NCBI GenBank assembly: GCA_018336075.1
Contig: JAGXRB010000046.1
Coordinates: 1 to 40,172 of the forward strand
Reading direction: 5' to 3'
DNA length: 40,172 bases
From: Bacteroidota bacterium
Lineage (GTDB): Bacteria > Bacteroidota > Bacteroidia > Bacteroidales > F082
Position 1 is the first letter of the stretch. Every line of letters begins with the position of its first letter. The notes below the pieces were generated by a model, which was given only the letters and a program-made list of their open reading frames with translations, did no database searches and was not told the DNA's origin. Both the position numbers and the translations under genes were made by a program. Positions 24,428 through 40,172 of the stretch are shown piece after piece.

Positions 24428-24430
24428 TTT

Positions 24431-24550
24431 TATACCAAAGTGAATTATAAATGAATCCAAAAGCTGTAATGGTATAATGCCGATGGATAGAAATGTTAGG
24501 CCAATTGAGTTAGCGATAATTGGACTATTACATTTCTCCTTTCGGTATTA
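24431..24550 (+). repeat. 120-bp interspersed palindromic repeat, copy 1
   Basis: TATACCAAAGTGAATTATAAATGAATCCAAAAGCTGTAATGGTATAATGCCGATGGATAGAAATGTTAGGCCAATTGAGTTAGCGATAATTGGACTATTACATTTCTCCTTTCGGTATTA; near-identical to copies at 29376 and 40072. Confidence 0.97.
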
Positions 24551-24561
24551 AATACAAAAGG

Positions 24562-25197
24562 CTAACAGCCGCAACTGCCTTGTTTTTGGTAATTTTGATT
24601 ATCCCCGCAAACACCACAGCCTTCTTCATCGCCATCATGATGATGGTCATGGCTATGATCGTGGCTATGACCTCCACCACCACAACAGCTGTCGTTTGGA
24701 GTACCACAGCCGCAACCCGAAACAGCAGGATTTAACTCTTCATAGGTCGCTTCTCTTACATTCAGCACTTCACCAATAGTGTATAAGCTTTTTCCAGCCA
24801 AAGCATGGTTAAAATCCATTGTCACGACATCTCCGTCAACCGAAATTACTCTTCCATCGAAAGGGTTGCCTTCATTGTCCATCATTGGAACAGTCCGGCC
24901 AATTTCCAGCGTACCTGCCTTAAGTTCTCCATTAACCATGAATGCAGCTTTTGGAATATCCATCACGAGTTCTTCACGATAAACACCAAAACATTCATCA
25001 GGACTCAGCATAAACTCGAATGTTTCTCCTGATTTTAATCCTAAAAGACGTGTTTCAAAGCTTTTAAGCAATCGACCTGTACCAAAAACCATGGTTCGTG
25101 GGTTTATCGCAGTTGCTTGTTCCAGCAGCTCACCTGATTCGTTTTCGACATGAATTTTGTAGGATAAAACACCTACTTTGTTTTCCTGTAATACCAT
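24562..25197 (-). CDS. slyD: FKBP-type peptidyl-prolyl isomerase, SlyD-like, with metal-binding tail
   Basis: FKBP/IF-domain motifs (GTGRLLKSFETRLLGLKSGETFEF, DFNHALAGKSL) and Cys/His-rich tail CGCGTPNDSCCGGGGHSHDHSHDHHHDGDEEGCGVCG...CGC. Confidence 0.9.
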   Translation of the reverse strand: MVLQENKVGVLSYKIHVENESGELLEQATAINPRTMVFGTGRLLKSFETRLLGLKSGETFEFMLSPDECFGVYREELVMDIPKAAFMVNGELKAGTLEIGRTVPMMDNEGNPFDGRVISVDGDVVTMDFNHALAGKSLYTIGEVLNVREATYEELNPAVSGCGCGTPNDSCCGGGGHSHDHSHDHHHDGDEEGCGVCGDNQNYQKQGSCGC

Positions 25198-29362: not shown

Positions 29363-29375
29363 TCTGGATTGATAT

Positions 29376-29495
29376 TATACCAAAGTGAATTATAGTTGAA
29401 TCCAAAAGCTCTAATGGTATAATGCCGATGGATAGAAATGTTAGGCCAATTGAGTGAGCGATAATTGGCCTATTACATTTCTCCTTTCGGTATTA
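29376..29495 (+). repeat. 120-bp interspersed palindromic repeat, copy 2
   Basis: Same length and orientation as copy 1, a handful of substitutions, no indels; terminal TTA at 29493-29495 is the stop codon of the minus-strand aminotransferase gene. Confidence 0.97.
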
Positions 29496-30728
29496 CATTT
29501 TGTATTCAAGAAACACCTTACGAATCCGGCTGATAGCTTCATGAAGTTGGTCTTCACTGATAACCAATGGTGGGGCAAAACGGATAATATTGCCATGTGT
29601 AGGTTTTGCCAACACACCGCTTTCAGCCATTTTTACGCAAAGATTCCATGCTGTATGGCTTTCAGGGCTGTCATTAACGATAATTGCATTGAGTAACCCT
29701 TTACCGCGAACATGTGCAACAAGCTGACATTCAGAGATTAGTTTACTCATCTCTGTACGAAATATTTTGCCAAGGTGCTCTGCTCTTTCAGCAAGATTTT
29801 CTTCTTTCACTACTTCCAATGCAGCAATTGCAACACGCGCAGCCACGGGGTTTCCTCCAAAAGTAGATCCGTGTTGGCCTGGCTTGATGCATAACATAAC
29901 TTCATCATCTGCCAAAACCGCTGAAACAGGATAAACACCACCTGAGAGCGCTTTACCAAGAATTAAGATATCAGGGCGGACACCTTCGTGCTCACAAGCT
30001 ATCAAACGGCCGGTACGGGCAATGCCAGTCTGAACTTCATCAGCGATAAAGAGAACGTTTTTGGCCTTACACATTTCGTAGGCTTTTTTCAGATAACCTT
30101 CATCCGGAACAAAAACGCCTGCTTCACCCTGAATAGGCTCAACCAGAAATCCTGCAATATTTGGATCTTCAAGTGCTGTTTCCAATGCGGCAAGATCATT
30201 ATATGGAATTGTGACAAATCCAGGAGTATATGGTCCAAAACCACCTCTCGAATCAGGATCGGTTGACATGCTGATTACAGTAATGGTGCGTCCGTGGAAA
30301 TTATTTTCGCAAACAATAATCTTAGCTTGGTTTTCGGCTATGCCTTTTTTATCGTAAGCCCATTTACGGCAGAGTTTAAGTGCAGTTTCATCACCTTCAG
30401 CGCCGGTATTCATTGGCAACACTTTGTCATAACCAAAAAAGTCAGTTATAAACTTTTCGTAAACACCAAGTGCGTCATTGTAAAAAGCCCTTGAGGTAAG
30501 TGTAAGTGTTTTTGCCTGATCAATGAGTGCATTGATAATCTTTGGGTGACAATGACCCTGATTAACTGCTGAATAGGCTGAAAGAAAATCAAAATATTCT
30601 TTACCTTCTACGTCCCAGACTAACGCACCTTCTCCTTTGGAAAGAACTACCGGAAGCGGGTGATAATTGTGTGCGCCATACTTATCTTCGAGCTCGATGG
30701 CTAACTGTGAAGTCATTTTTTCTGTCAT
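29493..30728 (-). CDS. rocD: ornithine--oxo-acid aminotransferase
   Basis: [49 protein letters not shown], class-III aminotransferase PLP region [13 protein letters not shown]...[15 protein letters not shown]. Confidence 0.95.
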
Positions 30729-36627: not shown

Positions 36628-36783
36628 TTGATAAGGCTTGAGGTTTCCTTTTAACCAATTGTAAGAAAGCAGCTTCCAATACTAATTTTATTTCACCGGA
36701 AACTTATATTATTCGTGGTGATTTAAAAAAATATCTATTTTGGCACCTTGGAAAATAATTTTTACTCACTAAAACACTTTATT

Positions 36784-39700
36784 ATGAATAATTTTACCCG
36801 TTACCTCCTATTGACAATTTTTATTTTATCGGTCAGCACAAACATTGATGCACAAAAAACCCAAAAAACAGCAGAAGCTGGAGCAACCGACATTTTTCAA
36901 GGCTTTAAGTTCAGAAATATCGGGCCCGCGCTGATGTCTGGCCGGATTGCAGACATTGCCATCCACCCTGACAACAACAACATCTGGTATGTTGCCGTTG
37001 GTTCGGGTGGTGTATGGAAAACCGAAAACTCAGGCACTACATGGGATCCTATTTTTGATTCTCAAGGAACTTATTCCATTGGTTGTGTCACCATCGACCC
37101 ATCAAATTCAGAGCGAATATGGGTTGGAACCGGCGAAAATGTCGGAGGTCGGCATGTTGGCTATGGTGATGGTATCTATAAAAGTGATGATGGCGGAAAA
37201 ACCTGGAAAAATATGGGATTGAAAACCTCAGAACATATTTCCAAAATCATTGTTCATCCAACAAAACCTGATATTATATGGGTTGCTTCTCAAGGACCGC
37301 TCTGGTCAAAAGGTGGTGAAAGAGGCGTCTATAAAAGTGAGGATGGCGGAAAAACCTGGAAACGCCTTCTTGGTGATGATAGCTGGACCGGCGCAACAGA
37401 TTTACTTATTGATCCACGCAATCCAGACAGAATCTACGCAGCTACATGGCAAAGACACCGCACTGTAGCTGCCTATATGGGTGGAGGTCCGGGTACCGCA
37501 ATTTATCGTTCGGAAGATGGCGGCCAAAACTGGGATAAGCTTAGCCGTGGATTACCCTCATCAGATATGGGAAAAATAGGCTTGGCACTTTCACCTCAGA
37601 AACCTGATGTAGTATATGCTGCAATTGAGCTGAACAGACGTTCAGGCGGTGTTTATAAAAGCACGAACAGAGGCGCTTCCTGGACTAAAATGTCGGATGC
37701 TGTTGCCGGCGGAACAGGCCCACATTACTATCAGGAATTGTATGCTTGTCCTCATCAGTTCGACCGTCTGTACCTTGTCGATGTATATATGCAGATCTCA
37801 GATGATGGTGGAAAAACTTTCAGAAGAATGAATGAGCAATACAAACATGTTGATAATCATGCTATTGCTTTCAGATCTAATGATCCAAATTATTTGCTTG
37901 TTGGCAACGATGGAGGTTTGTATGAAACTTTTGACCTCACCAAGTCATGGAAATTTGTTGCCAATTTACCTGTGACCCAGTTTTACAAAGTTGCTGTTGA
38001 CGATGATGAGCCTTTTTACAATGTTTATGGTGGAACACAGGACAACAACACGCAGGGCGGGCCATCGCGCACAGATAATGTGCATGGTATCAGAAATGCA
38101 GACTGGTTCGTAACTCTTTTTGGCGATGGGCATCAGCCAGCTACTGAGCCTGGCAATCCAAACATAGTGTATTCGCAGTGGCAACAAGGAAATCTTGTTC
38201 GTTACGACCGTATTTCCGGCGAAATTGTGTTGATCAAACCCCAGCCTGACGAAAATGAAGGCAGAGAGCGGTTCAACTGGGATGCCCCAATTCTGGTAAG
38301 TCCACACAAACCGGAGCGACTATTTTTTGCTTCGCAGCGTGTGTGGCAGTCTGAAGACAGAGGTGATAGCTGGAAACCTATTTCAGGCGACCTGACAAAT
38401 AACAGAGAACGCATTGAAGAAAAATTGATGGATCAAAACTGGAGTTGGGACTCACCCTGGGATTTATTTGCTATGTCCGATTTCAGTACAATTACATCTC
38501 TTTCTGAATCTCCGGTTAAAGAAGGTGTAATCTGGGCCGGAACCGATGATGGCTTGATTCAGTTTACAGAAGATTTTGGTAAAAACTGGAAAGCTATTAA
38601 AGTATCTGATCTAAAAGGCGTTCCAGCCGCTGCTTTCGTAAATGATATCAAAGCAGACCTTTTTGATGCTTCAACAGTTTATGTAGTGCTGGACGACCAC
38701 AAATCAGGTAATTTCAAACCTTATATCTATAAAAGCACAGACAAAGGAACAACGTGGACGTCGATCAGCGCTAACCTTCCCGAACGAGATCTTCTTTGGC
38801 GCGTTGTTCAGGATCATGAAAAAGCCGAATTGATGTTTCTGGCAACTGAAGCTGGCATTTGGTTTACTATCGATGCAGGTTCAAAATGGCATCAGTTAAA
38901 AGGCGGATTACCAGTTATTTCATTCCGTGACCTTGCCATTCAAAAACGCGAAAATGACCTTGTTGCAGCTTCATTTGGCAGGGGCTTTTACATTCTTGAT
39001 GATTATAGTCCTTTAAGATATGTAACCGAAAAGCAATTACAGGAAGAAGCTACTCTGTTCCCATTAAGAGATGCACTTTGGTACATTCCGCGTCAGTTGC
39101 TTGGAAACGATAAAAAAGCAAGTCAGGGCGATGCATATTTCGTAGCAGACAATCCTCCTTTTGGCGCTGTATTTACTGTCTATCTTTCAGAAAGTTATAA
39201 GTCTGTGGAAAAAATCAGGCAAGAAAAAGAAGCGGAATTAAAACGCAGCCAAGAGGGTGTGAAATTTCCGGGCTGGGACGCTTTAGAAAAAGAACGTAGA
39301 AGCCCTGAACCAGCGATTTGGTTTGTAGTTAAAGATTCTGAAGGCAACATTATGACTCGTTTTGAAGGGCCAAAAAACAAAGGATTTCATCGTGTTGCCT
39401 GGGACTTGGAAATGTCGGCAAACACAGTGATGACTGAAAGAAGCGGCGGACGGTTTTCAGGTGGACCAATGGTTGCCCCGGGAAAATATAGTGTTGAATT
39501 GTATAAACAGCTGGATGGAAATTTTGAGATGTTGGCTGGCCCTCAGTTTTTTGAGGTAAAACCATTGCGCAAAGGAAGCCTCAAAGGATCAGAACCTGCA
39601 GAAACAGCAGCATTCTGGAAAGAAATGCAAAACATCCGCAAAGGCACTAGTGCAGCTTCTATCGTGCTTCAAAATGTGCTCCAAAGATTAGATCTTATGG

Positions 39701-40074
39701 AAAAAGCGCTTGTACGCACTCCGGTCGACCCATCCGAAATTTTGAAAGACATCAGTAATCTTAGAGCTGAACTTTATGATTTTGATGCGCAAATGAATGG
39801 TAATCGATCAAAACAAAAAGTAGGAGAAAAGAGTGACCCAACCATTAATGACAGGTTATCTGCTGCTAATATGGGTACTTCCTTCTCTACATATGGCCCA
39901 ACAGCAACGCATAAAAGAATGCTTGAAATTGCCAGCAAAGAGTTCTCAGTTTTAAGAGAAAAACTGGAGATGATAAGAAAAGAAAGCCTTCCGGCTATTG
40001 AAAGGAAACTATCCGCAGCAGGTGCACCTTGGATCGAAGGTCAGGAAATACCAGAATATTCTGGTAGAAATTAG
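36784..40074 (+). CDS. secreted BNR/VPS10-like (sortilin-type beta-propeller) protein
   Basis: Signal peptide MNNFTRYLLLTIFILSVSTNIDA (start internal to ORF 36748); FKFRNIGPALMSGRIADIAIHP, GIYKSDDGGKTWKNM, GVYKSEDGGKTWKRL, IYKSTDKGTTWTSI; no T9SS tail seen. Confidence 0.88.
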   Translation: MNNFTRYLLLTIFILSVSTNIDAQKTQKTAEAGATDIFQGFKFRNIGPALMSGRIADIAIHPDNNNIWYVAVGSGGVWKTENSGTTWDPIFDSQGTYSIGCVTIDPSNSERIWVGTGENVGGRHVGYGDGIYKSDDGGKTWKNMGLKTSEHISKIIVHPTKPDIIWVASQGPLWSKGGERGVYKSEDGGKTWKRLLGDDSWTGATDLLIDPRNPDRIYAATWQRHRTVAAYMGGGPGTAIYRSEDGGQNWDKLSRGLPSSDMGKIGLALSPQKPDVVYAAIELNRRSGGVYKSTNRGASWTKMSDAVAGGTGPHYYQELYACPHQFDRLYLVDVYMQISDDGGKTFRRMNEQYKHVDNHAIAFRSNDPNYLLVGNDGGLYETFDLTKSWKFVANLPVTQFYKVAVDDDEPFYNVYGGTQDNNTQGGPSRTDNVHGIRNADWFVTLFGDGHQPATEPGNPNIVYSQWQQGNLVRYDRISGEIVLIKPQPDENEGRERFNWDAPILVSPHKPERLFFASQRVWQSEDRGDSWKPISGDLTNNRERIEEKLMDQNWSWDSPWDLFAMSDFSTITSLSESPVKEGVIWAGTDDGLIQFTEDFGKNWKAIKVSDLKGVPAAAFVNDIKADLFDASTVYVVLDDHKSGNFKPYIYKSTDKGTTWTSISANLPERDLLWRVVQDHEKAELMFLATEAGIWFTIDAGSKWHQLKGGLPVISFRDLAIQKRENDLVAASFGRGFYILDDYSPLRYVTEKQLQEEATLFPLRDALWYIPRQLLGNDKKASQGDAYFVADNPPFGAVFTVYLSESYKSVEKIRQEKEAELKRSQEGVKFPGWDALEKERRSPEPAIWFVVKDSEGNIMTRFEGPKNKGFHRVAWDLEMSANTVMTERSGGRFSGGPMVAPGKYSVELYKQLDGNFEMLAGPQFFEVKPLRKGSLKGSEPAETAAFWKEMQNIRKGTSAASIVLQNVLQRLDLMEKALVRTPVDPSEILKDISNLRAELYDFDAQMNGNRSKQKVGEKSDPTINDRLSAANMGTSFSTYGPTATHKRMLEIASKEFSVLREKLEMIRKESLPAIERKLSAAGAPWIEGQEIPEYSGRN

Positions 40075-40172
40075 ACCAAAGTGAATTATAGATGAATCCA
40101 AAAGCTGTAATGGTATAATGCCGATGGATAGAAATGTTAGGCCAATTGAGTGAGCGATAATTGGACTATTAC
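40072..40172 (+). repeat. interspersed palindromic repeat, copy 3 (truncated by window end; first 101 of 120 positions)
   Basis: TAGACCAAAGTGAATTATAGATGAATCCAAAAGCTGTAATGGTATAATGCCGATGG...ATTGGACTATTAC aligned without gaps to copies 1 and 2; first three bases are the stop codon of the upstream gene. Confidence 0.96.

Follow-up and report, generated by a model that had tools for sequence, protein, structure and literature searches.

Repeat copies in the window and in its source genome

The window analysed here is the whole of a 40,172-nucleotide contig from a Bacteroidales MAG (G000; 4.79 Mb in 430 contigs). It contains a short palindromic repeat which an earlier note, made from the letters alone, had described as two full 120-bp copies and a 101-bp partial copy. 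All three were found where that note placed them, in the same orientation and free of indels, as were the TATACC...GGTATA segment and the long imperfect hairpin that it had pointed out. The features are as follows, all given on the plus strand.

24430..24432, +, left target-site duplication TTA of copy 1 (from aligned flanks)
24433..24547, +, element copy 1, 115 bp, TACC...GGTA; orthologous site empty in G005 (L236)
24433..24474, +, module A of copy 1, 42 bp, ends TACCA...TGGTA
24475..24477, +, TAA spacer between modules A and B of copy 1; same spacer in the diverged elements of G076
24478..24547, +, module B of copy 1, 70-bp imperfect hairpin TGCCGATGG...TTTCGGTA (from folding)
24548..24550, +, right target-site duplication TTA of copy 1 (from aligned flanks)
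29375..29377, +, left target-site duplication TTA of copy 2 (from aligned flanks)
29378..29492, +, element copy 2, 115 bp; orthologous site cleanly empty in G005 (L228)
29493..29495, +, right target-site duplication TTA of copy 2; also the TAA stop codon of a minus-strand aminotransferase gene (29493-30728)
40071..40073, +, left TTA flank of copy 3
40074..40172, +, element copy 3, first 99 bp, the rest cut off by the contig end; first base mutated (GACC for TACC)

The neighbour of copy 1 (24562-25197, minus strand) encodes a protein of 211 aa whose C-terminal part is rich in His and Cys; the protein gave no Pfam match at E 0.001. At copy 3, a sortilin-like gene (36748-40074) ends in a TAG stop codon, of which TA comes from the end of the TTA flank and G is the element's mutated first base. 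The partial copy stops where the contig does (40172), so its truncation reflects an assembly break. Several other contigs likewise begin or stop inside an element copy, and the element therefore accounts for several contig breaks in the assembly, the window end among them.

The three copies counted in the window are a small part of the total, since the genome holds at least 40. Searching G000 with the 120-bp sequence gave 40 scored matches from 67 first-look candidates, and the core pattern, with up to three mismatches, was found at 43 places, against 0 for the reversed control. Further copies are present in G003, G005, G006, G015 and other public Bacteroidales MAGs; G000, G003, G005 and G006 thus contain the element, and G001, G002, G004, G007 and G008 gave no match. 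Phage and plasmid records and viral contigs gave 0 matches at the settings used.

Element boundaries, target-site duplications and empty sites

When the copies are aligned with their flanks, T(T/A)A precedes TACC at the left end and follows GGTA at the right. Among 72 distinct insertions (a few of them orthologous or nested), the flank pairs are TTA/TTA in 44, TAA/TAA in 10 and mixed TTA/TAA in 3, the remainder being otherwise changed. Left and right flanks match in 54/72, and the TTA/TAA choice on one side goes with that on the other (Fisher p = 1.6e-8). This correspondence is direct, not inverted, which identifies the triplet as a 3-bp target-site duplication. The 120-bp unit described earlier is thus real as a repeat, but its outer bases belong to the duplication, which leaves 115 bp for the element itself.

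Empty sites were sought by joining the G000 flanks without the element and comparing them with eight genomes of the same genus. The G005 counterpart of the site occupied by the window copy at 29378 has a single TTA and the sequence GATATTACAT (L228); in the same genome the site of the copy at 24433 is also empty, its TTA reading TGA (L236). The sites of two further copies are empty as well, one (that of L010) with one TTA (L244) and the other (that of L007) more diverged (L252). A host repeat provides a paralogous empty site: the element is present in it at L011 and L124, and at L146 the repeat lacks the element and has one TTA. The flanks of at least one shortened copy are identical in G000 and G005 (L154, L157), which together with the empty sites indicates that old and young insertions occur side by side: in some cases insertions differ between species of the genus, and others are shared and older.

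Local or segmental duplication in place of transposition is extremely improbable as the origin of the family. Tandem segments spaced by about 285 bp do contain a few of the copies (C13, C48) and some copies sit within a common larger host repeat, but most have unrelated flanks and a target-site duplication of their own, and the empty sites are clean; comparison of the flanks refutes duplication for the majority of copies. The duplications and empty sites point instead to a non-autonomous, MITE-like transposon. In keeping with this, the element is multicopy, short (~115 bp) and without coding capacity, has terminal inverted repeats (TACCAAAG / TACCGAAAG) that are short and imperfect, and is flanked by a TWA target-site duplication. 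The MITE-like reading proposed in the earlier note is thereby borne out in its multicopy, non-coding nature, its inverted ends, its target-site duplication and its empty sites.

A two-module plan and its derivatives

The element consists of module A (42 bp, TACCA...TGGTA), a TAA spacer and module B (a 70-bp hairpin, TGCCGAWGG...TTTCGGTA). An order-wide pattern search of 393 genomes found three diverged elements in G076, a member of a different family, which retain TACCAAA...TTTGGTA-TAA-TGCCGAWGG...CGGTA and are flanked by TTA/TTA in two of the three and by TGA/TAA in the other. Pattern matches in G322, G343 and G359 were rejected because they look like conserved coding sequence (WYNADG). In G013 and G027 a B module is found at a site with similar right flanks.

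Module A also occurs alone between matched TWA flanks (L125, L127, L143). Internal deletions of B are seen elsewhere (L135, L154), so that a solo A may be a deletion product; the solo copies could have arisen either by independent insertion or by palindrome-assisted deletion of B. In G006, a full element has inserted into the TTA of another copy (L071), and a 181-bp nested derivative, in which the left end is the outer one and the right end the inner one, is found at no fewer than three other sites with matched target-site duplications (L090, L079, L092). Its presence at duplicated sites of its own suggests that the two ends suffice for mobilisation and that the derivative itself has moved.

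Target preference, genomic placement and a possible RNA role

The target was analysed at 49 non-redundant matched sites. On the left flank, A is found at -3 in 39/49 (p = 3e-11) and C at -4 in 22/49 (p = 5e-6), while the mirror-image positions on the right are weakly biased (T 24/49, TG 5/49). A strong bias on the left with a weak one on the right indicates an oriented target preference, (C)A-N-N-TWA. ORFs of 80 aa or more contain none of the 63 scored sites, and the neighbouring genes are arranged in tandem at 28, convergently at 22 and divergently at 11, with 2 at an edge (these counts are from a simple ORF caller, with nested sites counted twice). Four sites have a scored distance of 0 to the end of the neighbouring gene.

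Intergenic siting, more often between convergent than divergent genes (22 vs 11), and stable predicted hairpins (-30 and -39.2 kcal/mol; z = -3.35 and -5.98 relative to dinucleotide shuffles) would suit a structured RNA family, either a 3'UTR element or a small RNA, kept for a host function. Against this, Rfam scans gave sub-threshold matches only, with nothing at the gathering score, and the element is missing from orthologous sites. Across 60 gapless copies (2280 cells), 180 pairs are broken and 10 show double changes; shuffling gives a mean of 5 double changes (sd 1.9, maximum 11), which places the observed covariation near background. Substitutions found in single copies are spread evenly over nine regions of the element (p = 0.49; n = 93, giving limited power), a pattern that fits neutral decay after insertion. 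Taken together, the even singleton mutations and the near-background covariation do not support an RNA role, and we consider one very unlikely. The suggestion of structured 3'UTR RNAs made earlier is not upheld on these three counts (Rfam, covariation and singleton distribution), and the case illustrates that conspicuous structure in a repeat can belong to neutral mobile DNA and not to an RNA.

Search for the mobilising enzyme

Loci encoding DDE_Tnp_1, DDE_Tnp_1_2 and DDE_Tnp_4 in the sampled genomes showed no ends matching the element. At the IS5-like loci found (L167, L168) the ends were either different or not detectable, the sampling covering few genomes and incomplete MAGs. No exact pairs of TWATACCRAAR ends at an IS-like distance occur among the matches listed, which cover those of G006 and part of those of G000. 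The transposase with the same terminal repeats that had been predicted was therefore not found in the sampled DDE loci or the end-pattern matches listed; the mobilising enzyme may have been lost, may be unassembled, or may belong to a family outside those searched. One weak match beside a DDE gene (G000:C353) was taken as chance, the contig being G+C-rich and probably contamination. This contig (L166) also carries a hemA-like gene, as read from its sequence, and the contamination estimate for the G000 MAG is 8.58%.

REP/BIME repeats moved by RAYTs (Y1 HUH transposases) have hairpins that are recognised in single-stranded form and insert without duplicating the target. Like them, the element is a short, palindromic, intergenic repeat with two hairpins; its consensus stem has a G-A mismatch, its target preference is asymmetric, and RAYT-like Y1 genes are present in these genomes (L197-L199, L202-L204, L207 and L211, in G000, G003, G005, G006 and G015). 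REPs are not expected, however, to produce a target-site duplication, and the clear 3-bp duplication, with single-TTA empty sites, largely refutes this origin. Moreover, the Y1/RAYT genes examined are flanked not by the element but by unrelated palindromes of their own. The REP/BIME reading, also raised in the earlier note, is accordingly given little credence. The palindromic repeats near the RAYT-like genes include GGCACGGATTTGCAATCCGTGCC, CCTAACAGGTTTTTAAAACCTGTTAGG and CAACCCCGAAGGGGTTGAA, and several REP systems seem to coexist in the genus.

The core of an integron attC site is GTTRRRY; GTTAGGC in the element fits it, but the order of the arms is wrong and this assignment was rejected.

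Relation to known elements and interpretation

MITE derivatives of PIF/Harbinger transposons exist (the Tourist type), and elements of the IS1031 group target TNA. The target duplication of PIF/Harbinger is 5'-TWA-3' and that of bacterial IS5 is ANT (PMC4482050). The element shares the TWA duplication with PIF/Harbinger, in agreement with the IS5/PIF-Harbinger kind, but PIF/Harbinger is eukaryotic and the element bacterial, and the sampled loci contain no transposase bearing its ends.

Prokaryotic MITEs are non-coding, AT-rich and intergenic, measure less than 500 bp, and have short terminal inverted repeats flanked by direct repeats (PMC10969869). The element resembles them in all these respects and differs in the imperfection of its short terminal repeat, in its A-TAA-B two-hairpin plan, and in that an autonomous partner was not found in the sampled loci. 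The same review makes no mention of uncultured Bacteroidales (PMC10969869). BrickBuilt, a MITE-like intergenic element of Porphyromonas gingivalis (Bacteroidales), has 23-nt tandem repeats and a target-site duplication of inconsistent length (PMC4596501). Its 3' terminal repeat CCGAAAGGTCTC contains the string CCGAAAGG, also present in the right end of the element, possibly by chance. By description, the 23-nt repeats, the inconsistent duplication lengths and the otherwise dissimilar terminal repeats set BrickBuilt apart from the present element. We take the element to be a new MITE family, whose unusual parts are the asymmetric target and the conserved two-hairpin plan.

We therefore conclude, with a probability of roughly 90%, that the repeat is a 115-bp family of MITE-like, non-autonomous DNA transposons mobilised in trans by a putative transposase. 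Counted against this are the sampled DDE loci, which lack a transposase with matching ends, the short and imperfect terminal inverted repeat, and the asymmetric target (A at -3, 39/49), which is unusual for a DDE MITE. The enzyme would be a DDE-type transposase making 3-bp staggered cuts, and the TWA target makes the IS5/PIF-Harbinger kind the most plausible candidate. Such an enzyme may act differently on the left end, in module A, and the right end, in module B, and this would account for the orientation of the target preference. The A-TAA-B plan itself may have arisen by insertion of one mini-element beside another, and the copies are probably selectively neutral once inserted.

A bolder proposal, which we think rather unlikely, is that A-TAA-B is the ancestral functional unit of a transposition system not described before, with an enzyme that reads its two unequal ends in an asymmetric way and places the element in a single orientation at (C)A-N-N-TWA. 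Such a system, if real, would fall outside both the classical symmetric MITEs and the REPs. For the MITE-like transposon that we favour, the oriented asymmetric target and the TWA duplication offer a clue to the transposase, and its transposition is well documented (dozens of target-site duplications, empty sites and mobile nested derivatives), adding such a family to the uncultured Bacteroidales.

Two arrangements of host sequence around the copies were also observed. In L031 (G000:C13) and at G000:C48:33072-33367, the element and about 165 bp of flank occur in tandem with a spacing of about 285 bp. A second interspersed repeat, containing GGTGCAGCGCACC palindromes (L011, L124, L158, L129, L146), carries the element in some of its copies.
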